Of a stretch of 48,479 bases of DNA, positions 36,203-46,509 are shown piece by piece (position 1 is the first letter of the stretch; every line of letters begins with the position of its first letter). Origin of the DNA: a virus; the IMG/VR virus record IMGVR_UViG_3300008110_005229, positions 1 through 48,479 of that record. One strand, given 5' to 3'. The notes under the pieces are model-generated. The model was given only the letters and a program-made list of their open reading frames with translations, did no database searches and was not told the DNA's origin. A program made the position numbers and the translations under genes.

Positions 36203-36589
36203 ATGCATAAATATTTGTACATGGAAATACTCCTACTTTTAACCCTATTACAAATCAAGCACTGGTACGCTGATTTTAAAATACAGACCTACATGCAGAC
36301 TGTGAAAAAAGGCGTGTGGTTAGATCCTATTGGCGTAAGCCATAGTATAGATCATATGTGGTGTACCCTTGTGGCATTGTTAGTCTTTAGTATTTTCTAT
36401 CCAATTACAGTTGGTGCCATATTTTTAGTAGCTTTCATAGAAGGCATTGTACATTACCTTATAGACTACACTAAAGTAAAATATGGTTGCAAAGACAATA
36501 CCAAACCTCTGTTTTGGAATCAATTTGGTCTTGACCAATTAGCACATCAAATCTGTTACATACTGATTGTATTTTTCCTCCTAGTCTAA
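36203..36589 (+). CDS. DUF3307-like membrane protein
   Basis: A 128-residue protein with three or four membrane segments. KHWYADFKIQTYMQ near the start, HSIDH in the middle and DQLAHQICYILI at the end match the small DUF3307 membrane family (H..xDF..Q, then a D...H pair). The histidines suggest a metal-binding or enzymatic role in the membrane. It lies just upstream of csgF. Confidence 0.72.
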   Translation: MHKYLYMEILLLLTLLQIKHWYADFKIQTYMQTVKKGVWLDPIGVSHSIDHMWCTLVALLVFSIFYPITVGAIFLVAFIEGIVHYLIDYTKVKYGCKDNTKPLFWNQFGLDQLAHQICYILIVFFLLV

Positions 36590-36655
36590 ATCTGCTAGTT
36601 TAATTCTTCATCTCGGGTCATTAAATAATAATGACAGACTGCCGGGAGCGAATCA

Positions 36656-37108
36656 ATGAAAAAACACATAGCAGTTCTAATTATAACAGTTGCCTCTTCT
36701 GTACAGGCCGCTGAATTAGTACACCAATTTACTAGTCCATCCTTTTCTGGAATAGGATTCTCAAGTCATGCACTTACAATCTATAACCAAGAGTTAAGTC
36801 GTAAGTTAGCCATTGCAGCTGAAAAGAAAGCAGACGCACTTAAAGCTGAACAAGATGCTAAAAACACCACTATGGCTAAATTTATATCAAATTTAGAAAG
36901 TAGGATATACAACGAGTTGGCTAGACAAATAACAGAAAAATTATTTGAAGGCCAAGGCGGACAAGCGTCCGGAACTTTTGCTTTCAATGGCGGAACAATA
37001 ACATATACCAAGGTTGGTAATATGATAGAAATCACTATACGTGATGCAAATGGAAACGTCACTACAATGACGGTGCCCATTGGAGACTTTGGATGGCTAT
37101 CACCATGA
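36656..37108 (+). CDS. csgF: Curli assembly protein CsgF
   Basis: A 150-residue protein with a signal peptide (about 1-18, cleaved after VQA). ELVHQFTSPSFSGIGFSSHAL matches the CsgF start, in which the mature N terminus inserts in the CsgG pore; a long helix (40-85) and a small beta domain follow. In E. coli CsgF ties the nucleator CsgB to the secretion pore. Its stop overlaps csgG by ATGA. The ribosome site is GGGAG. Confidence 0.82.
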   Translation: MKKHIAVLIITVASSVQAAELVHQFTSPSFSGIGFSSHALTIYNQELSRKLAIAAEKKADALKAEQDAKNTTMAKFISNLESRIYNELARQITEKLFEGQGGQASGTFAFNGGTITYTKVGNMIEITIRDANGNVTTMTVPIGDFGWLSP

Positions 37109-37962
37109 AATTAATAACATCTTTAATAGCAGCTTCGTTTTTAACAGGCTGTGGCACTATAGGTAATATGGTCAGAGACTTCGACGATCCTGTTATTACC
37201 CAACCTAAATTAAAAACTGAACAAGGACTGAAAGCACCTGCCGCAGGATCTATCGCTGTAGCAGTTTACAGCTTCAGAGATATGACTGGACAGAGAAAAG
37301 CCAGCCAAAATATTGCAAGTTTAAGTTCAGCAGTTACGCAAGGGGCAGATGCTTACCTTGTTAAGAGTCTACAAGAAATAGGCGGCGGGCAATGGTTTAA
37401 AGTTTTAGAACGAGGCGGCCTAGATAATCTTATCAAAGAACGACAATTAATTCGCCAGATGAGAGAACTGTATCAAGGCGACAAAGCACAGCCTTTACCT
37501 CCAATGATGTTTGCTGGAATGATTTTAGAAGGCGGTATCATTGGCTACGACAGCAACACTTTAAGTGGTGGTAGTGGTGCTCGATTACTAGGTATTGGTG
37601 CCAGCACTGAATACCGTCAAGACGAAGTTACAATTAGTCTACGTGCAGTAAGCGTAGCTACTGGTGAAGTTTTAGTAGCTGTAAATGTCAGTAAAACTGT
37701 GTATAGCTTTATGGACAAAGCTGGTGTATTAAGATTTATGGAAGCTGGTACTAGAAGTCTTGAATTAGAAACTGGTTCAGCAACTAACGAATCTATGAAC
37801 CGTGCTGTTCAGTTGGCAATACATGCAGGTGTTATTGAAATGATCAACCAGGGAGCTACTAAAGGCCACTGGGCATTCAAGCAAGAGGAGAAGAAAGATG
37901 AGCTGGTTCAAAAAAACTCCCAACCTGAAGCGAACAGAGAAGCACCTGCCACAAAGAAGTAG
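37105..37962 (+). CDS. csgG: Curli secretion channel CsgG
   Basis: A 285-residue lipoprotein; the ATG at 37105 gives the signal MKLITSLIAASFLTGCG with Cys in the lipobox (LTGC). WFKVLERGGLDNLIKERQLIRQMRE and the MILEGGIIGYDSNT / YRQDEVTISLRAVSVATGEVL blocks are conserved CsgG features. The protein forms the nine-subunit outer-membrane pore that lets curlin out unfolded. It is close to the E. coli length (277). A small gene overlaps its 3' end in another frame. Confidence 0.9.
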   Translation: MKLITSLIAASFLTGCGTIGNMVRDFDDPVITQPKLKTEQGLKAPAAGSIAVAVYSFRDMTGQRKASQNIASLSSAVTQGADAYLVKSLQEIGGGQWFKVLERGGLDNLIKERQLIRQMRELYQGDKAQPLPPMMFAGMILEGGIIGYDSNTLSGGSGARLLGIGASTEYRQDEVTISLRAVSVATGEVLVAVNVSKTVYSFMDKAGVLRFMEAGTRSLELETGSATNESMNRAVQLAIHAGVIEMINQGATKGHWAFKQEEKKDELVQKNSQPEANREAPATKK

Positions 37963-38059
37963 TCAGGTAGCTGAAAAATTATGGAAGGAAACTGTTTTAA
38001 AACATAACGCAGAAAAGAGCGATTTAAATCCAAATAATAAAAACAAAGGAGCGGATTAA
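37898..38059 (+). CDS. 53-residue basic protein nested in csgG end
   Basis: It begins in another frame within the last part of csgG, with AGGAG eight bases before the ATG (MSWFKKTPNLKRTEKHLP...). It is basic and hydrophilic, with no signal peptide. A good ribosome site and a stop just before the curlin gene at 38061 suggest it is real. Small proteins with an N-terminal WFKK.....KRT pattern occur in other phages and bacteria, but I know no function. Confidence 0.55.
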   Translation: MSWFKKTPNLKRTEKHLPQRSSQVAEKLWKETVLKHNAEKSDLNPNNKNKGAD

Positions 38060-38060
38060 A

Positions 38061-38741
38061 ATGATTAAGAATTATAGACAAATGGCATTCGTAATGGCGG
38101 CCATATTTGCTGGTTCTGGAGCATATGCAGACAACAAAGTCTACATTGAACAAGCAGGTAGCAGTAATACGGTTACTATTACTCAAGTGGGCAGCACAAA
38201 CAGAGTAGGTAACGTTGGCACTGGTAATCAAAGCAAAATTACTGGTAGCACAAACACACTAACAACATCTCAATCAGGAGATGGCAACATTATTGATTAT
38301 ACCGTGGTAGGTAACGGTAATACGATTACTAAAACTGTAACAGGTGATACAAATCAGATTACTTTTACTTGTGGCGACGGAACAACAGCATGTACAACTG
38401 TAACAAGTTCTATGACTATAGTTGGTGAGCTGAATACCGTGACTAGCACCATTAAGGGATCAAATATTACAAATACTTTAAGTATAACTGGTGACAGCAA
38501 TACTGTTACACAAAGTATTCTTACAAGCAATAGTACTAGCAATATTACTATACTAGGTGACAGTAACGCATTTACCAGCGCAATGAGTGGTGCCAGCGGA
38601 GGCACAGGACATCATTTGATTGCTGCGGTATCAGGCACAAGCAACACACACTCAATTACACAAAGTGGTAGTGTTAATACAAATGTAAGCATTGTAACAA
38701 CAGGTAATTCGAACACAGTATCAGTAACCACTGGAAACTAA
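38061..38741 (+). CDS. Curlin-repeat amyloid protein
   Basis: A 226-residue secreted protein with signal peptide (1-23, ending GAYA). It is built of curlin-type repeats of the form SxxNxxTxxQxGxxN: VYIEQAGSSNTVTITQVGST and later GNGNTITK, GDSNTVTQSI, GTSNTHSITQSGSVN. E. coli CsgA has five such repeats of about 22 residues; here there are about eight, less regular. It should form a beta-solenoid amyloid. The ribosome site is AAAGGAG. It is probably exported through CsgG. Confidence 0.82.
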   Translation: MIKNYRQMAFVMAAIFAGSGAYADNKVYIEQAGSSNTVTITQVGSTNRVGNVGTGNQSKITGSTNTLTTSQSGDGNIIDYTVVGNGNTITKTVTGDTNQITFTCGDGTTACTTVTSSMTIVGELNTVTSTIKGSNITNTLSITGDSNTVTQSILTSNSTSNITILGDSNAFTSAMSGASGGTGHHLIAAVSGTSNTHSITQSGSVNTNVSIVTTGNSNTVSVTTGN

Positions 38742-38742
38742 A

Positions 38743-39837
38743 GTGAAATATCTATGGCTGTTAGCTTTATTAATTGCATCTGGAGCTCAGGCAAACATCG
38801 GAAAGATAACCGAGCTCCAGGGCGCAGCCGTTGAAATAAAAAGAAAAAATCAAGCAATCAAAGCAGGCAAAGACACAGTGATAGAAGCCAACGACACTGT
38901 CAGTGTTGGCTCTAATACTAAACTTACAATAACATTTGCAGATAACTCTACTGCAAAAATTACAGAAAACAGCAAACTAGTTATAGATGATTTTGTCTAC
39001 GACCCTAAAGGTTCTAGCAAGAGCGCCATGCGTGTTACTTTAGGTACAGTAAGAATGGCCTCCGGCGGTATTGCCAAACAGAATTCAGAAAGTGTAAACA
39101 TAAGAACTCCTACCGCAGCTATTGCAGTTCGCGGCACAGACTTTGCCATGACAGTCAGTGAACTAGGAGAGAGTACAGTTGTATTATTACCAACTTGTAA
39201 AGACGACAGAGATGCAACTAAAGTAGAACTACCCGGTAACTGTGTCTGTGGAGCAATTGACGTTGTTACTCAAGCTGGTAAAGTAAGTATGGAAAGTCCT
39301 TTTTTTGCCACACACGTTGCCACAGCACAAGAAGTACCACTAGTTCCAGTAAGAGTAGATCCTCAAATTATCAACGCCAGTGGGGAAGGTAATTTAAACA
39401 AACCACAAGCAGTGGCGTTAGCACATGTTGAAAAACAAGAACGTAAAGAAGCACATAAAGACAAAAGCAAAGCCAATCAAGACGAACAACGAACTGCTAG
39501 AGACAACAACAAAGATGCAGTAGATAAGAGAAAATCAGCATCTGATGATGATACTATTAATAGAGCTCTTCGTGGAGAAGTGGGTGAAATTAGAACTGCC
39601 GATGCTGGCACAGCAGCTAATCCTTGTTGGCCATTTACCAGTTGTGGTAATGAAAAAGGTTACAACTGGTATGAACACGTAGACCCCTTACGTGGCAATA
39701 TTATTCATATTAGAACACTAGAAACAACAGATACAACAACATACAATATTTCAGTAAACAATGTTGACGTCAGCCAACGTCAAGTAGGCAGTGGTGCCAA
39801 TGGTAACGTAGTAACGGTGAGACAATGGAACAGATGA
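38743..39837 (+). CDS. Secreted FecR-domain protein
   Basis: A 364-residue protein with a GTG start one base after the curlin gene and a signal peptide (1-17). The FecR domain spans about 20-130: GKITELQGAAVEI, DTVSVGSNTKLTITFADNS, RTPTAAIAVRGTDFAMTV. Lys/Asp-rich and Cys-bearing segments follow. FecR domains are often periplasmic signalling parts and are also found next to curli genes and CHASE2 cyclases in bacteria. Here it lies between two curlin-repeat genes and upstream of such a cyclase. Confidence 0.8.
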   Translation: MKYLWLLALLIASGAQANIGKITELQGAAVEIKRKNQAIKAGKDTVIEANDTVSVGSNTKLTITFADNSTAKITENSKLVIDDFVYDPKGSSKSAMRVTLGTVRMASGGIAKQNSESVNIRTPTAAIAVRGTDFAMTVSELGESTVVLLPTCKDDRDATKVELPGNCVCGAIDVVTQAGKVSMESPFFATHVATAQEVPLVPVRVDPQIINASGEGNLNKPQAVALAHVEKQERKEAHKDKSKANQDEQRTARDNNKDAVDKRKSASDDDTINRALRGEVGEIRTADAGTAANPCWPFTSCGNEKGYNWYEHVDPLRGNIIHIRTLETTDTTTYNISVNNVDVSQRQVGSGANGNVVTVRQWNR

Positions 39838-41768
39838 AAAAGATACTGTTAACCTTATTGTTTTTATGCTCTAATGCATATGCTGACCTAACTGATATCA
39901 AATTCGGCCAAAGTCAGATCGCTGACAGTCAATGGAACGTTAATGCCTGTCTTAACACCACCACCTGCCAGATTTATAGCAAACAACCTGGAACAGCTTA
40001 CAAGATTCCTTGGACTAGTGGGCAGGTACAATGGGCTGCTGGAGACTATGTAAAATTTGAAATGAGCGGAAACAACTCGTTTCCCTATACTGCAAAGCAA
40101 TACGACAGCGCAGGTAATGTTAAATCTACACTGGGCAGTGGTAAAATTGTTAATATGGGTCCTGACTATTTTTTCTTTGTAGGTAGTGATAATAACACTG
40201 GACAACTATTCAGCGGTAGCAGCGGTATGAGCGGAACAGCAGGAGTAAGTTGGACTGGCACACTTAACCCTTCGGTGGCACAGGCCAATACCTATGCTGA
40301 TGCTAGTTACTCTACCGTTCCGTTAACCGCAGGACAGACTGCAACAACTACACCTAGTAGTTCAGCGCCTCCACCTGCTCCGCCACCATCTACAGGGCCT
40401 GTTAGTCCTACTGCTACTAATGCTAATTTTGGATTTGAATCTGGTACTACTGCTAACTGGACAATCAGTAATGGTACTGGTACAGAAAAAACTGATCCGT
40501 GGAGCGACAATGGCAGTGGTGTAAACACTTCTAAAGGTATGGCAAACTATAGTCCAGACGGACAAAAGTCTTGGACAGTGACACCTTATGGTACATACAT
40601 GCTGGCGATTCAAGCTGGCGGCGGCAGTCCTAACTTTGATCCTGCTATGACAAGTTTAGGTTTAACTACTACACATATAACTGAGATAAGAAACTATCTA
40701 ACAGGATTAGGTGGAAATAGTTCACCAACAAATGCTTCTTGGGCAAAACGTACAGTTACACTGGAAGCAGGCAAAACTTATGTTGTAGCATGGCAGTATA
40801 TGAGCACTGACTATGTACCGTTTAATGACGGCTCTATGATGACTTTAATACACTCTACTGATCCTAGTAAAGTGCCTACACTAAACAACAACACAAAGAA
40901 TTATGCCTTGCTAGGATTTACTAATCCCGGCACAGGTAACTATGCCACTGACAGTTACGGTTCTACTGGTTGGCAGTTGGCTACTATTACTGTGCCTATC
41001 ACAGGAGATTATATACTAGGTTTTGCCAGTTTCAATCTAGGCGATACTGCGTTAAGTCCTATTTTGTTTGTTGACGATTTACAAGGCGCAACGTTTTTAA
41101 ATGGCACAACATTTGGTCCTATTGCTCCTAACGCAGGAAGTAACGCTCCAGTAACTGGTGGTGGTGGCAGCACACCCCCACCTTGTCCTAACAGTTCTAC
41201 ATGCTCTACAGATGCGTTTGCTGCCAACACTGGATTTAACAATCGTGCCAATGTATGGAGCCAACAAACTGGCAACAAAGTTATCATTGAACAGATTGGT
41301 AGCTATAATGTTATCACAGTAGGACAGTCTGGTCGTAAAAATTATTCAGAAATTGATATTATAGGTAGTAATAATTCAGTAACAACTATTCAAACAAGTG
41401 GATTAACATCTGCTACAAATTATATGGAAATATCAGTTAACGGAAGTAATAATACCATAGAAAATAGACAAAACAGTACTGGTGGTGCTAAAGGTAGTAT
41501 GACTACGGTTAACAACAATAATAATCAAGTTGAAATATGGCAGAAAGACAACGGCAATCATTATGCAGAAATCAACGTATCGGGCGGCAGCAAAACAGTT
41601 GGTGTTATACAAGAAGGTAGTGGAAGCCATATGGCTAAAATAACTCTTACAGGCGGCGCTACAACTATCAATACTACACAAAGTGGCAGCACACAGCAGT
41701 TCTACTCAATAACACATAGCTGTGCCCAAGCGAGCTGTGCGGCAATAACTGTTACTCAAGGGCAGTAA
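39834..41768 (+). CDS. Large secreted protein with C-terminal curlin repeats
   Basis: I chose the ATG at 39834 (MKKILLTLLFLCSNAYA signal peptide), overlapping the FecR stop. The 644-residue product has an N-terminal beta domain, a Pro-rich linker (PPPAPPPSTGP) near residue 180, a central jelly-roll-like domain (NANFGFESGTTANWTISN ... ILFVDDLQGATF, about 195-425) and curlin-type repeats from about 480 (NKVIIEQIGSYNVITVGQSG and on). It may be a nucleator, a CsgB analogue, with a surface-binding domain. Confidence 0.75.
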   Translation: MKKILLTLLFLCSNAYADLTDIKFGQSQIADSQWNVNACLNTTTCQIYSKQPGTAYKIPWTSGQVQWAAGDYVKFEMSGNNSFPYTAKQYDSAGNVKSTLGSGKIVNMGPDYFFFVGSDNNTGQLFSGSSGMSGTAGVSWTGTLNPSVAQANTYADASYSTVPLTAGQTATTTPSSSAPPPAPPPSTGPVSPTATNANFGFESGTTANWTISNGTGTEKTDPWSDNGSGVNTSKGMANYSPDGQKSWTVTPYGTYMLAIQAGGGSPNFDPAMTSLGLTTTHITEIRNYLTGLGGNSSPTNASWAKRTVTLEAGKTYVVAWQYMSTDYVPFNDGSMMTLIHSTDPSKVPTLNNNTKNYALLGFTNPGTGNYATDSYGSTGWQLATITVPITGDYILGFASFNLGDTALSPILFVDDLQGATFLNGTTFGPIAPNAGSNAPVTGGGGSTPPPCPNSSTCSTDAFAANTGFNNRANVWSQQTGNKVIIEQIGSYNVITVGQSGRKNYSEIDIIGSNNSVTTIQTSGLTSATNYMEISVNGSNNTIENRQNSTGGAKGSMTTVNNNNNQVEIWQKDNGNHYAEINVSGGSKTVGVIQEGSGSHMAKITLTGGATTINTTQSGSTQQFYSITHSCAQASCAAITVTQGQ

Positions 41769-41817: not shown

Positions 41818-42228
41818 ATGCGATTCCAAGAATTTAAAAATACTGAACCACAGTTTCTTCAAGCATTACAGGACTTCCTGCCCATTGCTATGCAAGAACT
41901 TGATATTAAGTCTCTTCCTAAAATCAAATTAGAAAAAATCGTTCCAGACGATGAACAACCTACTTTTGGACGGATGGACTACGACGACAAAACTATAACT
42001 ATAGGTCTAGCCAATAGACATATAATTGACATACTGCGTACTTTGGCACACGAACTAGTGCATTGGAAACAACTAACACTAAACCAATTAGGCGATATGA
42101 GTGGAGAAACAGGCAGTCCTGAAGAAAACCAAGCCAACGAAGTAGCTGGTGTTATAATGAGACACTTTAATAAAAAGTTCCCTCAGTACTTTCACACTAA
42201 ACCTTTAGATATGGACGTAAGCAAATGA
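41818..42228 (+). CDS. Small HExxH metallopeptidase-like protein, capsid-targeting-like N terminus
   Basis: A 136-residue protein starting MRFQEFKNTEP, one of the shared lead peptides. H78-E79-x2-H82 (TLAHELVHWKQ) is a zinc HExxH motif; E108 in NQANEVAG could be the third ligand. It is short for a protease, roughly the catalytic core alone. It may be packaged in the head. Its stop overlaps the cyclase gene by ATGA. Confidence 0.65.
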   Translation: MRFQEFKNTEPQFLQALQDFLPIAMQELDIKSLPKIKLEKIVPDDEQPTFGRMDYDDKTITIGLANRHIIDILRTLAHELVHWKQLTLNQLGDMSGETGSPEENQANEVAGVIMRHFNKKFPQYFHTKPLDMDVSK

Positions 42229-44279
42229 AGAAAATTTTACTTAATCCCTGGACGGCTCTGATCACACTGGCTGTAGTTTTATTGATCCGTGCTTGGGATC
42301 CAAGTTTTGTAGAAAGTGTAAGACTACGTTACTTTGATCAACTAATTACATCTGCACCTAAAAAACCTGTTCCAGTACATACTGTTAACATAGACGAAGC
42401 AGCACTAGACAAATACGGTCAATGGCCTTTCCCTCGTGATGTATATGCAAAGATAATTCAAGACTTGTATAAACGAGATGTGGCACTGGTTGTATTCAAT
42501 GTAATGATGCCAGAAAAAGATCGCTTTGGCAAAGATGCTGTACTAGCAGACACATTGAAACAGTTTCCAGTTGTACTACCCGCAGTAGGCAGTACAAAAA
42601 GTAAGAATACAGATAGAGGCAGTCCTGTACAGCTAGTGGGTCAGGACCCAACTGGAAAAATGGCAGAGTATCATGGACTGATTAATTCCGTAGATGTAAT
42701 AGCAGACCTAGCTGCAGGTGTTGGTATTGTTAATACATTTCCAGAGATAGACGGTGTTGTTCGACGCATGCCTTTGGTCATCATAGCAGGCGGTAATGTT
42801 CATCCTGCACTGAGTTTAGAAACACTCAGAACTGCGGCCAATGACAAGATACAGGTTAAGATCGGGGATAAAGGTGTAGAAGCTCTACGTATTCCACAAA
42901 TGGGCAAGTTTGACACAGACAATTTAAGTCGCATTTGGATTGACTGGTCATCCAAGCCAACAGAACACAGTCTTGCTGACCTACCAAAAAGTTTTAACGG
43001 TGAAGTCGTTATTGTTGGATTAAGCGCAGCAGGTCTTGTAAATCCTGTGTCGACAGCACAGGGAGAAGTGTGGCCGCAGTACTTACAGGCCGCAGTATTC
43101 GGCACAATGGTCAGCGGCAGTAATATTCAACGTTCAGGCCATGCTGATGATTTAGAAATTATACTAATATTGATCGCAGGCGTAGCACTGATATTTTTAA
43201 TGAGGTGGACCTATGTGGGCATTGCGGCAACTGTTGTTGTTATTGGTGGGGTCATTGGTGGTAGCATTTACGCTTACAGTAGCCATATGGTATTATACGA
43301 CTCAACTGCCTTTGCAGTTGGCGTTGGACTGGTCGCTTTGCATGCCTACATGGTCAAGTTCGTCTCAGAGTTCTTACAGAAGCAACAGATCAGAAAGCAG
43401 TTCCAAAGCTACCTCAGTCCCGACCTTGTTGCCAAACTGATTAAAGATCCTAGTCTATTACGTCTAGGCGGAGAGGAAAAAGAACTCAGTATTATGTTTA
43501 CTGACGTTCGTGGCTTTACCAGCATCAGTGAACACTACGGCAGAGATGTGCAGGGCTTAACCAGCATTATGAATCGTTACATGACTGCTATGACTAGAAC
43601 TATTCTTGAAACAGGCGGTACACTAGACAAGTATATTGGTGATGCACAAATGGCTTTCTGGAATGCACCACTTGATGAGACCAAGCATTGTAAAGATGCT
43701 GTCAAAGCCGCACTCGAAATGTTAGGGAGTTTAGATGGGTTTAATAACAGTATTAAAGAAGAAGGTGTTCCACCCTTTGGCATGGGTATTGGCATTAACA
43801 CTGGGGTTGTTGTTGTTGGTAATATGGGCAGCGAGCAGCGTTTTGACTATACTTGTCTTGGTGATTCTGTCAATCTTGCATCCAGACTTGAAGGACAAAG
43901 TAAAAACTATGGCGTCCTCATTGTACTTGGTCCCGTAACTGCTGAACGTGTAGCCACTGACTATTTTACTCTAGAACTAGACTGTATTGCTGTTAAAGGT
44001 AAGAAAGACGGGGTAAACATCTATACAGTATTCTACAATCCTTCTACTGAAGAAGAACTTAAAGAATGGAAACATGACAGAGAACTACATGATCTCATGT
44101 TAGAATACTATCGTAAGCAACAATGGGATAAAGCCATTGCGTTAATTGAAACTGTGAGAGGCAAGTTTGCCGGTGGCATGGATCATTACTATGATCTATG
44201 GTTAGAACGAATAGAGGAAATGCGTAATGCGAATTTACCTAGCGACTGGGACGGAGTTTTTAGAGCCACGAGCAAATGA
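42225..44279 (+). CDS. CHASE2-type class III adenylate cyclase
   Basis: A 684-residue membrane enzyme. An N-terminal membrane helix leads to an extracytoplasmic CHASE2-type sensor (about 28-300: IDEAALDKYGQWPFPRDVYAKII...), then three membrane helices (about 305-385) and a cytoplasmic cyclase domain (about 415-600). D427 in MFTDVRGFT and D473 in IGDAQMAFW bind metal; K469 and the Asp of FDYTCLGDSVN fit ATP over GTP. It should make cAMP in response to an external or periplasmic signal. I know of few or no phage examples. Confidence 0.88.
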   Translation: MKKILLNPWTALITLAVVLLIRAWDPSFVESVRLRYFDQLITSAPKKPVPVHTVNIDEAALDKYGQWPFPRDVYAKIIQDLYKRDVALVVFNVMMPEKDRFGKDAVLADTLKQFPVVLPAVGSTKSKNTDRGSPVQLVGQDPTGKMAEYHGLINSVDVIADLAAGVGIVNTFPEIDGVVRRMPLVIIAGGNVHPALSLETLRTAANDKIQVKIGDKGVEALRIPQMGKFDTDNLSRIWIDWSSKPTEHSLADLPKSFNGEVVIVGLSAAGLVNPVSTAQGEVWPQYLQAAVFGTMVSGSNIQRSGHADDLEIILILIAGVALIFLMRWTYVGIAATVVVIGGVIGGSIYAYSSHMVLYDSTAFAVGVGLVALHAYMVKFVSEFLQKQQIRKQFQSYLSPDLVAKLIKDPSLLRLGGEEKELSIMFTDVRGFTSISEHYGRDVQGLTSIMNRYMTAMTRTILETGGTLDKYIGDAQMAFWNAPLDETKHCKDAVKAALEMLGSLDGFNNSIKEEGVPPFGMGIGINTGVVVVGNMGSEQRFDYTCLGDSVNLASRLEGQSKNYGVLIVLGPVTAERVATDYFTLELDCIAVKGKKDGVNIYTVFYNPSTEEELKEWKHDRELHDLMLEYYRKQQWDKAIALIETVRGKFAGGMDHYYDLWLERIEEMRNANLPSDWDGVFRATSK

Positions 44280-44452
44280 TTGATCCATTTGCTTTATGGT
44301 TTGATTATCAGGTGTGGTTAATGCTACAAATGAAATTTATGACACCTGCATACATGATGAGTAACAATGATGATATGCAGGCGTTTTTGAAACAGTTTAG
44401 CTTAAACGGTATTAAGGCTTCTAATCTTTGCAAGCCCTACGATTCTAAATAA
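44276..44452 (+). CDS. Possible 58-residue protein, convergent overlap
   Basis: Its ATG overlaps the cyclase stop (ATGA). The product is Met- and aromatic-rich (DPFALWFDYQVWLMLQMKFM) with a hydrophobic first half. Its last 51 bp overlap the 3' end of the minus-strand desaturase. The coupling argues for expression; the overlap leaves some doubt. No function is known. Confidence 0.45.
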   Translation: MIDPFALWFDYQVWLMLQMKFMTPAYMMSNNDDMQAFLKQFSLNGIKASNLCKPYDSK

Positions 44453-45118
44453 CGTAAACCACATCCAACCTATGTCAAATTCGAACCAGCGTCTGCTGAG
44501 TTTAGGATTTGCTGGATCAAGATGGTGATTGTTGTGCAGCTCTTCACCGCCAATTAAGATACCCCAAGGACTTACATTGTGTGAGCGATCTTTAGTTTCG
44601 CCATTACGATATCCCCACCAATGTCCAACTCCATTGATAAAGCCAGCAGCCCAGAATGGTATCCAGATCATCTGAACACCCCACACTAAAAATCCCCATG
44701 GCCCAAATAATAACAGATCTATGATCAACATTAAAAGAATGCCCAGTCGATGGTGAGGTGTATAAAGTTTGCGCTCGATCCAGTCTTTGGGAGTACCCAT
44801 GCCGTATTTCATAACCATGTGTGCATCTCTACCTGCTTGATTATAAAATTTAACTCCGCCAAAGACTAGTTGCCAAATGCCAAATACGTGTGGGCTGTGC
44901 GGATCGCCTTCTACGTCTGTATTCTGATGATGTTTACGATGTATTGCCACCCATTGTTTAGTAGTCATACCAGTGGTCATCCATAACCAAAATCGCATAA
45001 AGTGACTCAGTGCAGGATGAAACTCAATACCTCTATGTGCTTGGCAGCGATGCAGATATAGGGTAACACAAACGATAGTTATGTGTGTACAGATTAATAT
45101 ATAGATAAATTCATTCAT
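44402..45118 (-). CDS. Membrane fatty acid desaturase (delta-9 type)
   Basis: A 238-residue integral-membrane desaturase. The three histidine boxes that bind the di-iron centre are all present: HRCQAH (H23, H28), HRKHH (H60-H64) and HNNHH near residue 195. At least four membrane helices are seen. It introduces a double bond into acyl chains using electrons from the host and could alter membrane fluidity. It is the last gene of a leftward unit of small membrane proteins. It is short but complete relative to bacterial acyl-CoA or lipid desaturases. Confidence 0.9.
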   Translation of the reverse strand: MNEFIYILICTHITIVCVTLYLHRCQAHRGIEFHPALSHFMRFWLWMTTGMTTKQWVAIHRKHHQNTDVEGDPHSPHVFGIWQLVFGGVKFYNQAGRDAHMVMKYGMGTPKDWIERKLYTPHHRLGILLMLIIDLLLFGPWGFLVWGVQMIWIPFWAAGFINGVGHWWGYRNGETKDRSHNVSPWGILIGGEELHNNHHLDPANPKLSRRWFEFDIGWMWFTLFRIVGLAKIRSLNTV

Positions 45119-45975: not shown

Positions 45976-46050
45976 ATGGATGATGATTTAACAAGATTTG
46001 TAATCGGATTTGTTGTTATAGTAACAGTGATGTTACTGATCTTGTTGTAA
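45976..46050 (+). CDS. 24-residue membrane peptide
   Basis: The frame reads MDDDLTRF followed by a continuous hydrophobic stretch, ending LLILL. It is charged at the N terminus and has one membrane span, like small phage toxins or lysis modulators. It starts six bases after the -10 of a promoter and has no ribosome site, so it would be a leaderless message. Real expression is uncertain. Confidence 0.4.
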   Translation: MDDDLTRFVIGFVVIVTVMLLILL

Positions 46051-46055
46051 GTTAT

Positions 46056-46448
46056 TGCTGTATGAAGCAAAGAGAAAAGTGTTCTGGACGCGGGTTCGAC
46101 TCCCGCCAGGTCCACCAAAAGGATATTTATGAAGTACACCGCATTGTGCCCAAATTGTTTTATTAGATTTGGTTGGGTAATGAGGAAAGGCTTAACAAAA
46201 CATAAGTGTTTTTCTGATGGGCCTGCCATGGTTTCGACAGGGCAAAGAGTAACGGAGTGGACAGCTCGGGAAAGCAGAACCCGTAGGATTGGGGTAACCC
46301 GGTCGTAGAAGCAAAAACCATAAATGCAAAAACAGCATTTCAGTACTGGCAAGCTCCAGTTGGCGTTTCAGCAATGAACGACAGCGAGTTCGCCCTAGCT
46401 GCCTAAAAAACAGAGTGCCGGGGTTGGCTACCTTGTAACCCAATAGCC
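46056..46448 (+). ncRNA. ssrA: Permuted two-piece tmRNA
   Basis: The 3' acceptor piece lies first: GGACGCGGGTTCGACTCCCG is a T arm, ending in CCACCA at 46117. The coding piece follows about 100 bases later from 46219 (GGGCCTG, then CCATGGTTTCGACAGGG). GGGCCUG pairs with CAGGUCC in seven pairs, with the third pair G-U as in alanine acceptors. The tag frame begins GCA at 46311, runs 31 codons and ends ...MNDSEFALAA before TAA (46404). A pseudoknot forms from 421-425/437-441 and 426-430/444-448 (positions plus 46000). The 5' edge and cut points are approximate. Confidence 0.9.
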
Positions 46449-46473
46449 GATAGGGCTTCGGCCCTATCTTTTT
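46449..46473 (+). terminator. Intrinsic terminator of the tmRNA
   Basis: GATAGGGC (46449-46456), TTCG loop, GCCCTATC (46461-46468), five T. A strong UUCG-capped stem right after the tmRNA pseudoknot. Confidence 0.93.
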
Positions 46474-46509
46474 CTTTTGTTGCAAAAACACCACATTATA
46501 ACATGGTTC

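Follow-up and report, generated by a model that had tools for sequence, protein, structure and literature searches.

The linear, 48,479-base IMG/VR virus entry considered here (IMGVR_UViG_3300008110_005229; its full length is referred to as the window) contains a set of curli, or type VIII secretion, genes. Five open reading frames (ORFs), encoding CsgF, CsgG, a curlin-repeat protein (curlin-1), a FecR-domain protein and a second curlin-repeat protein (curlin-2), were found in one run on the + strand at positions 36656-41768, as had been described in an earlier reading of the same DNA made from its letters alone (the original prediction). While the five genes were thus correctly placed, the end of the cluster had been drawn too early, with the conserved set extending to a gene encoding a CHASE2 sensor and cyclase at 42225-44279. 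The features of the locus are as follows:

36611..36649, + strand: predicted hairpin of the csgF leader; its centroid stem spans 36611-36647, with TAAATA (36622-36627) at the apex and the Shine-Dalgarno sequence GGGAGC (36644-36649) in or adjoining the 3' arm
36656..37108, + strand: CsgF homologue, 150 amino acids (PF10614, 1e-17; phrog_35372, 4.5e-39)
37093..37962, + strand: CsgG outer-membrane pore lipoprotein, 289 amino acids (PF03783, 7e-51; PDB 6lqh, 1.3e-47)
38061..38741, + strand: curlin-1, 226 amino acids, a beta-solenoid fibre-subunit candidate (PF07012, 9.4e-7; mean predicted local distance difference test score (pLDDT) of model, 89.3)
38743..39837, + strand: FecR-domain protein, 364 amino acids, GTG start (PF04773, 1.8e-11)
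39825..41768, + strand: curlin-2, 647 amino acids (PF07012, 6.3e-5); modelled as an N-terminal domain (21-170), a jelly roll (~200-430) and a solenoid (484-647)
41818..42228, + strand: small ORF with a HELVH (HExxH) motif, outside the conserved set (read from the sequence; weak match to phrog_87 metallo-protease, 0.0094)
42225..44279, + strand: protein combining a CHASE2 sensor with a class III cyclase, 684 amino acids (PF05226, 5.3e-35; PF00211, 8.2e-20; phrog_35576, 2.5e-231)

The csgF and csgG ORFs overlap, as do those of fecR and curlin-2, and the GTG start of fecR lies one base past the curlin-1 stop. N-termini resembling Sec-type signals were read by eye in CsgF, both curlins and the FecR-domain protein, as was a lipobox in CsgG. 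In profile searches, the Pfam matches of CsgF, CsgG, the curlin repeat and the FecR domain all exceeded curated cut-offs, and the pore, the coupling factor and curlin-type substrates are, judging by profiles and solenoid models, all encoded, as originally predicted. The curli set in the window is real and lies beyond chance.

Residues 10-273 of the window CsgG match the solved Escherichia coli CsgG (1.3e-47), with G19-C20, the latter being the lipobox cysteine, invariant in 16 of 16 aligned CsgG sequences. All 10 virus records searched with the CsgF profile gave a score over its cut-off; a single-sequence search of the PDB matched no CsgF chain. CsgE, correctly listed beforehand as missing from the set, gave no match over the cut-off in any of 10 virus records, including the window, in a search that detects E. 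coli CsgE; the lone sub-threshold match (16.1 bits, record G004) contains an internal stop. Because alphaproteobacterial curli modules likewise lack CsgE (Wittmers et al., 2022; PMC9599517), its absence is no bar to membership in type VIII secretion. With CsgG bearing a lipobox, CsgF and curlin-repeat substrates, the window belongs to this class of system.

The folds of the two curlin-repeat proteins were considered using AlphaFold. Both were modelled with a solenoid, such that neither of the outcomes named in the original prediction as speaking against it, namely a lack of profile support for CsgF/CsgG and repeats not forming a solenoid, occurred. The curlin-1 model consists of stacked beta strands (mean pLDDT 89.3; predicted template modelling score (pTM) 0.82), and that of curlin-2 presents strand repeats over residues 484-646 (mean pLDDT 80.6; pTM 0.49). 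When aligned with the E. coli CsgA fibril 8enq, curlin-1 gave a Z of 13.2 and a root-mean-square deviation (rmsd) of 8.5, with the corresponding values for curlin-2 being 13.6 and 8.3. As beta-helix proteins other than CsgA gave better alignments with curlin-1 (for the SufB-SufD complex, Z 17.3 and rmsd 3.6) and the rmsd to 8enq is high, the model is that of a solenoid and offers no proof of amyloid.

Beyond its predicted solenoid, curlin-2 includes two further domains. The N-terminal domain (21-170) was modelled with a pLDDT mostly above 90; no structural match to it was found, a result that is not evidence, since the domain was not folded alone. The best structural alignment of the jelly roll was with the porphyran-binding module 8xmz (Z 9.8, rmsd 2.9, 126 residues aligned), followed by CBM16 (Z 8.5) and similar folds in unrelated proteins (Z of about 8). 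Searching BFVD with curlin-2 using Foldseek returned phage proteins named 'Curlin associated' (2.2e-33). In an alignment of 49 curlin-2 sequences, mainly the longer ones among 76 different sequences available, the middle domain of the window protein is replaced by an F5/8 type C domain in 24 and by a PA14 domain in one. Exchange of such cassettes was next considered in the 35 of these 49 rows that had been gathered via CsgG rather than via curlin-2. Here, the N-terminal cassette occurs in nine and the window-type jelly roll in 14, with both being found together in two, namely, the window and L005. The Spearman correlation between segment identity and CsgG identity was 0.60 for the curlin module (595 pairs), 0.36 for the N-terminal domain (231 pairs) and 0.10 for the middle domain (458 pairs), where pairs are not independent of one another. 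Segments more than 60% identical despite a CsgG identity below 60% were seen in 22 of 177 pairs for the N-terminal domain and in 67 of 342 for the middle domain, as compared to one of 468 for the curlin module. The plain reading of these sequence comparisons is that display domains recombine on a resident fibre module. Curlin-2 thus appears to be modular, with the predicted solenoid tracking CsgG divergence and the carbohydrate-binding-like and N-terminal domains being exchanged.

The distribution of the gene set among viruses was addressed by several searches. A tblastn search with the window CsgG matched seven of 50,697 phage records, corresponding to four of Methylophilales phage Melnitz, pelagiphage HTVC008M twice and one 'Salmonella phage' (OR851715.1; 1499 bases, no annotation, CsgG match 43.6% identical), with this last record possibly being host DNA. 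Within IMG/VR, 20 loci were retrieved with the window CsgG alone, and searching with a profile yielded at least 593 stretches, of which 80 were kept. The order csgF-csgG-curlin-FecR-curlin-cyclase prevails among 129 viral loci, some of which share a contig. Well-covered loci were defined as those with at least 7 kb downstream and at least 0.7 kb upstream of csgG, with 63 of 104 different viral CsgG passing; part of these loci had been found through curlin-2. CsgF is found in 62 of these 63, curlin-1 and the FecR-domain protein in all 63, and curlin-2 and the cyclase in 58 each, with 53 containing all five.

In a CsgG tree of 205 rows calculated by a quick method, 106 viral rows and five from metagenome-assembled genomes (MAGs) were separated from 94 bacterial rows by a branch with a Shimodaira-Hasegawa-like approximate likelihood ratio test (SH-aLRT) value of 99. 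HTVC008M and Melnitz fall in one viral subgroup and the window in another, the latter together with a 357 kb contig (L010) of 67% CsgG identity. Seven contigs of 250-372 kb each presented a match to the T4-type capsid protein Gp23, this being seven of the ten records searched; no match was obtained in a 64 kb record, a 138 kb record or a bacterial MAG. Judged by sequence, the curli set occurs outside the CsgG clade of HTVC008M and Melnitz, including in all seven 250-372 kb contigs found. A literature search of limited coverage yielded no report of curli in jumbo or freshwater phages. Several of the related contigs are probably of freshwater origin.

The curli operons of bacteria (csg in E. coli; csgFG-curlin in alphaproteobacteria) share full-length CsgG homology, CsgF and the curlin repeat with the viral set. 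The viral set, however, regularly includes both the FecR-domain protein and the CHASE2-cyclase, whereas these accompany csgG in only one of 66 bacterial loci with at least 7 kb downstream, a count obtained with profiles built from viral proteins, such that distant bacterial versions could be missed. The length filter kept 66 of 80 bacterial loci, with L055, in which FecR is present, being among those dropped. The exception (L053) is a 705 kb contig of a Hyphomonas MAG where csgF-csgG-curlin-FecR-cyclase lie between ordinary, chromosomal-looking genes. In 20 further loci from the same order (20 of 21 additional csgG genomes, G092 being left out), neither FecR nor cyclase was found near csgG. 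In the tree, L053 CsgG falls on the viral side at the end of a long branch; it could be either donor or recipient. Four other loci (L054, L055, L059 and L080), likewise on the viral side, are contigs of 3.1-6.9 kb that may be viral. As far as gene content reveals, FecR plus cyclase can as such be considered characteristic of the viral lineage, as likewise stated by Wittmers et al. (2022; PMC9599517), the one chromosomal exception here being L053.

The FecR and cyclase components were examined further. Canonical FecR sits in the membrane and regulates a sigma factor of the FecI type. Because no sigma factor adjoins the FecR-domain gene, none being matched by Pfam among ten proteins scanned around it, a role as a Fec-type iron regulator is unlikely. 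We infer the pairing of the FecR-domain and CHASE2 proteins from gene neighbourhood only. The window cyclase retains six catalytic positions, D427, K469, D473, D541, N550 and R554, which presumably correspond to two metal Asp residues, the Lys/Asp pair for purine specificity and the transition-state Asn/Arg pair. In an alignment of 17 hand-chosen homologues, all six are kept in 10, and the transition-state Asn and specificity Asp are jointly lost in seven, Melnitz included. This joint loss therefore suggests that some phages may retain the CHASE2 sensor without ordinary cyclase activity. The cyclase of one relative (L033) is also without a stretch holding a metal Asp, and in two others (L017 and L019) the curlin-2 and cyclase genes are separated by ORFs that are, by sequence, phosphoesterase-like and glycosyltransferase-like. 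A curlin-like repeat at the FecR C-terminus was also sought. Of 90 real tails, 86 were matched by a curlin-2 profile, with a top score of 13.4 bits, vs. 216 of 450 shuffled ones, with a top score of 9.3 bits, and hhalign gave a probability of 47.7 against curlin-2 and 11.1 against curlin-1; this signal is weak and such a repeat is not claimed.

The region preceding csgF was next considered across relatives. TAAATA occurs at -75 to -20 in 66 of 105 different csgF leaders, as compared to an expectation of 12.3 in Markov shuffles (maximum, 27) and to 38 of 417 other large ORFs. The usual form of the motif is NTAAATA[C/A]TA, with TAAATAnTA being found in 45 of 71 csgF leaders vs. 10 of 63 elsewhere. 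TAAATA followed by GGGAGC was seen 53 times in the viral loci, which are redundant, and 46 of these occurrences are directly 5' of csgF. Of 104 leaders folded, 80 contain TAAATA, with 41 of these folding at z < -2 and 64 leaving at least three motif bases unpaired. When the arms of 73 leaders were swapped, own pairing averaged -10.0 kcal/mol vs. -7.0 kcal/mol for swapped arms, own pairing being better in 3872 of 5184 comparisons; for 64 control leaders with TAAATA, the values were -3.5 and -3.7 kcal/mol, with own pairing better in 1747 of 3796. Stem sequences vary widely across leaders, with pairing preserved. The predicted hairpin, with the csgF ribosome-binding site (RBS) in its 3' arm, thus co-varies across relatives.

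In T4, late transcripts of gene e, soc, 49 and I-TevI lack the 5' arm of a comparable hairpin because they start inside it (PMC3014915; PMC2988022). In these hairpins, as in the csgF leader, the RBS lies in the 3' arm and a late-promoter-like motif at the tip. By analogy, the csgF leader resembles the translation-delay device of T4 gene e and I-TevI. The csgF leader differs from those of T4 in that the motif is mostly NTAAATA[C/A]TA and not TATAAATA and in that it precedes a secretion operon. As for TAAATA as a putative late promoter, one large phage shows enrichment of the motif upstream of its genes (37 of 335 vs. 14). Ten such genes, chosen from that phage, include those for a virion structural protein, a baseplate wedge and a protein weakly matching a tail protein, but also ribonucleotide reductase, HNH endonuclease and methyltransferase genes. 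Sigma-70 promoter and terminator signals at the operon were near shuffle level (21 vs. 20.4, and 10 vs. 6.4 with a standard deviation of 2.5, respectively). Late promoters in pelagimyophages could not be predicted by Zaragoza-Solas et al. (2020; PMC7029224). Of the two halves of this leader model, more speaks for the hairpin than for the late promoter; it is possible that the motif is instead a protein-binding operator.

Taken as a late-expressed system, the phage type VIII secretion operon would serve for the display of an amyloid adhesin on infected cells, a reading to which we give an even chance of being correct. Read-through transcripts would fold the hairpin and csgF would be poorly translated, whereas transcription from a late promoter of TAAATA type within the tip would yield transcripts without the 5' arm, and the operon would be translated late. 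The curlins would be exported via Sec and then through CsgG-CsgF, with curlin-1 forming the fibre and curlin-2 joining via its solenoid to display exchangeable domains of glycan-binding type. Infected cells or their remains could then adhere to other cells or to polysaccharide, such that released virions remain close to new hosts, or competitors among phages could be impeded. As a guess, the FecR-domain protein and the CHASE2-cyclase may act together as a sensor in the periplasm that generates a cAMP signal. Of the explanations considered, adhesin fibre display would use all of the parts, as far as sequence and models can tell. Put forward more tentatively is the broader proposal that a T4-like lineage, very large phages included, controls its curli operon in the manner of a lysis gene, with an RBS-hiding hairpin and a late promoter at the tip, and that the fibre bears swappable glycan-binding domains, making for a sticky trap whose specificity evolves as in tail fibres. 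If true, some phages would, at a defined time, make the host build a lectin display anchored on amyloid; 'sibling capture,' 'superinfection shield' and 'lysis pore' would become testable by timing, target and effect; and the exchangeable curlin-2 domains would offer a handle on what such fibres stick to in nature.

Several observations weigh against late-expressed adhesin display. CsgE was not found. The likeness of the modelled jelly roll to a porphyran-binding module (Z 9.8) is no demonstration of glycan binding, and Foldseek searching of the PDB with curlin-2 returned nothing at E<=0.001. The window hairpin alone (-13.6 kcal/mol, z -1.57) is not significant, with 13 of 200 shuffles being as good, and 24 of the 104 folded leaders are without TAAATA (mean z -0.6). 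The full T4 late consensus, TATAAATA, is present in only 10 of 107 csgF leaders, since A seldom precedes TAAATA there (11% vs. 52% elsewhere), and in the window it occurs at chance level (4 vs. 3.9 expected). In seven large phages, no TAAATA was found in the ~440 bases before gp23, a positive control that thus scored 0 of 7. Finally, Melnitz presents neither TAAATA nor a hairpin before csgF, and clumping was not seen with this phage, for which a lysis-timing pore was preferred (Buchholz et al., 2022; PMC9004378).

In that explanation, argued for Melnitz (PMC9004378), the CsgG-CsgF pore would serve to time lysis or to depolarise the membrane, akin to a pinholin or secretin, with fibres being secondary. 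RBS sequestration is known for the T4 lysozyme gene e, early translation of which could lyse the cell (PMC3014915). Left unexplained, however, are the presence of curlin-1 in 63 and of curlin-2 in 58 of the 63 well-covered loci, as well as the exchanged display domains; moreover, Buchholz et al. reasoned from missing csgA/B, yet the Melnitz-3 GenBank record labels two curlin-repeat genes. We consider a lysis pore unlikely. Somewhat less likely still is that the benefit lies in the exclusion of competing phages from fibre-bearing infected cells, as put forward by Wittmers et al. (2022; PMC9599517). Such a superinfection barrier would rely on the same fibre-display mechanism as does host capture, and diversifying surface domains fit both alike, but late expression, if right, would be late for an exclusion system. 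Least probable is that an ungated channel admits nutrients or cofactors to the infected cell (Zaragoza-Solas et al., 2020, PMC7029224; Wittmers et al., 2022, PMC9599517), as such uptake, consistent as it is with the failure to find the CsgE gate in 10 of 10 virus records, needs neither curlins, CsgF nor display domains, all of which are retained.

The adhesin-display reading can also be set against earlier reports. The original prediction knew of no full export-plus-substrate set in a phage; this does not hold, as the same gene order occurs in Melnitz-3 and HTVC008M, and a complete set with FecR and cyclase was described, together with metatranscriptome expression, in nine pelagipodophage genomes and in pelagimyophages (Wittmers et al., 2022; PMC9599517). 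A claim to the first full set in a phage, already annotated and published, was accordingly rejected. That study proposed superinfection defence and aggregation, and 'sibling capture' had been proposed by Zaragoza-Solas et al. (2020; PMC7029224). Earlier, csgF and csgG were known and csgA/B deemed missing (Zaragoza-Solas et al., 2020, PMC7029224; Buchholz et al., 2022, PMC9004378). In the Melnitz-3 GenBank record, two genes are labelled 'curlin associated repeat protein'; in HTVC008M, FecR and the second curlin are annotated as hypothetical and were recognised by phmmer. A word search of the portions available of these three phage papers, which deal with pelagiphages and Melnitz, found no passage on a leader hairpin, a lectin or a carbohydrate domain, and cassette swapping and the leader hairpin are features not found in those passages.

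The pelagiphage module, as in HTVC008M and HTVC023P-type podophages, shares the csgF-csgG-curlin-FecR-curlin-cyclase order with the window. HTVC008M CsgG is ~46% identical to that of the window and belongs to a different viral clade, and the phage matches window curlin-2 solely over residues 484-645; TATAAATA lies close before csgF, with no hairpin being shown there. Melnitz, also of the same gene order and with a tmRNA nearby, encodes a curlin-2 of 341 rather than 647 amino acids and a cyclase without two catalytic residues. In the podophages of Wittmers et al., a histidine kinase before csgF is said to be constant (PMC9599517); the window instead contains a DUF3307 gene, itself preceded by a gene without a Pfam match.

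This DUF3307/phrog_2470 membrane protein (36203-36589; PF11750, 4e-10) is encoded directly 5' of the csgF leader, and a homologue precedes csgF in some relatives. As to the phage itself, a megablast search with the first 25 kb of the window matched no phage record, and a capsid gene was not identified in the record. Past the operon, a fatty-acid desaturase is encoded on the - strand at 44402-45118 (PF00487, 1.2e-15; NCBIfam DesA-type, 393.7 bits against a cut-off of 400), a homologue of which lies upstream of the curli genes in relative L033. Farther along, at 45996-46497, is a permuted tmRNA (tmRNA_permuted, 109.6 bits; beta_tmRNA, 84.1 against a cut-off of 84), followed by several tRNAs.

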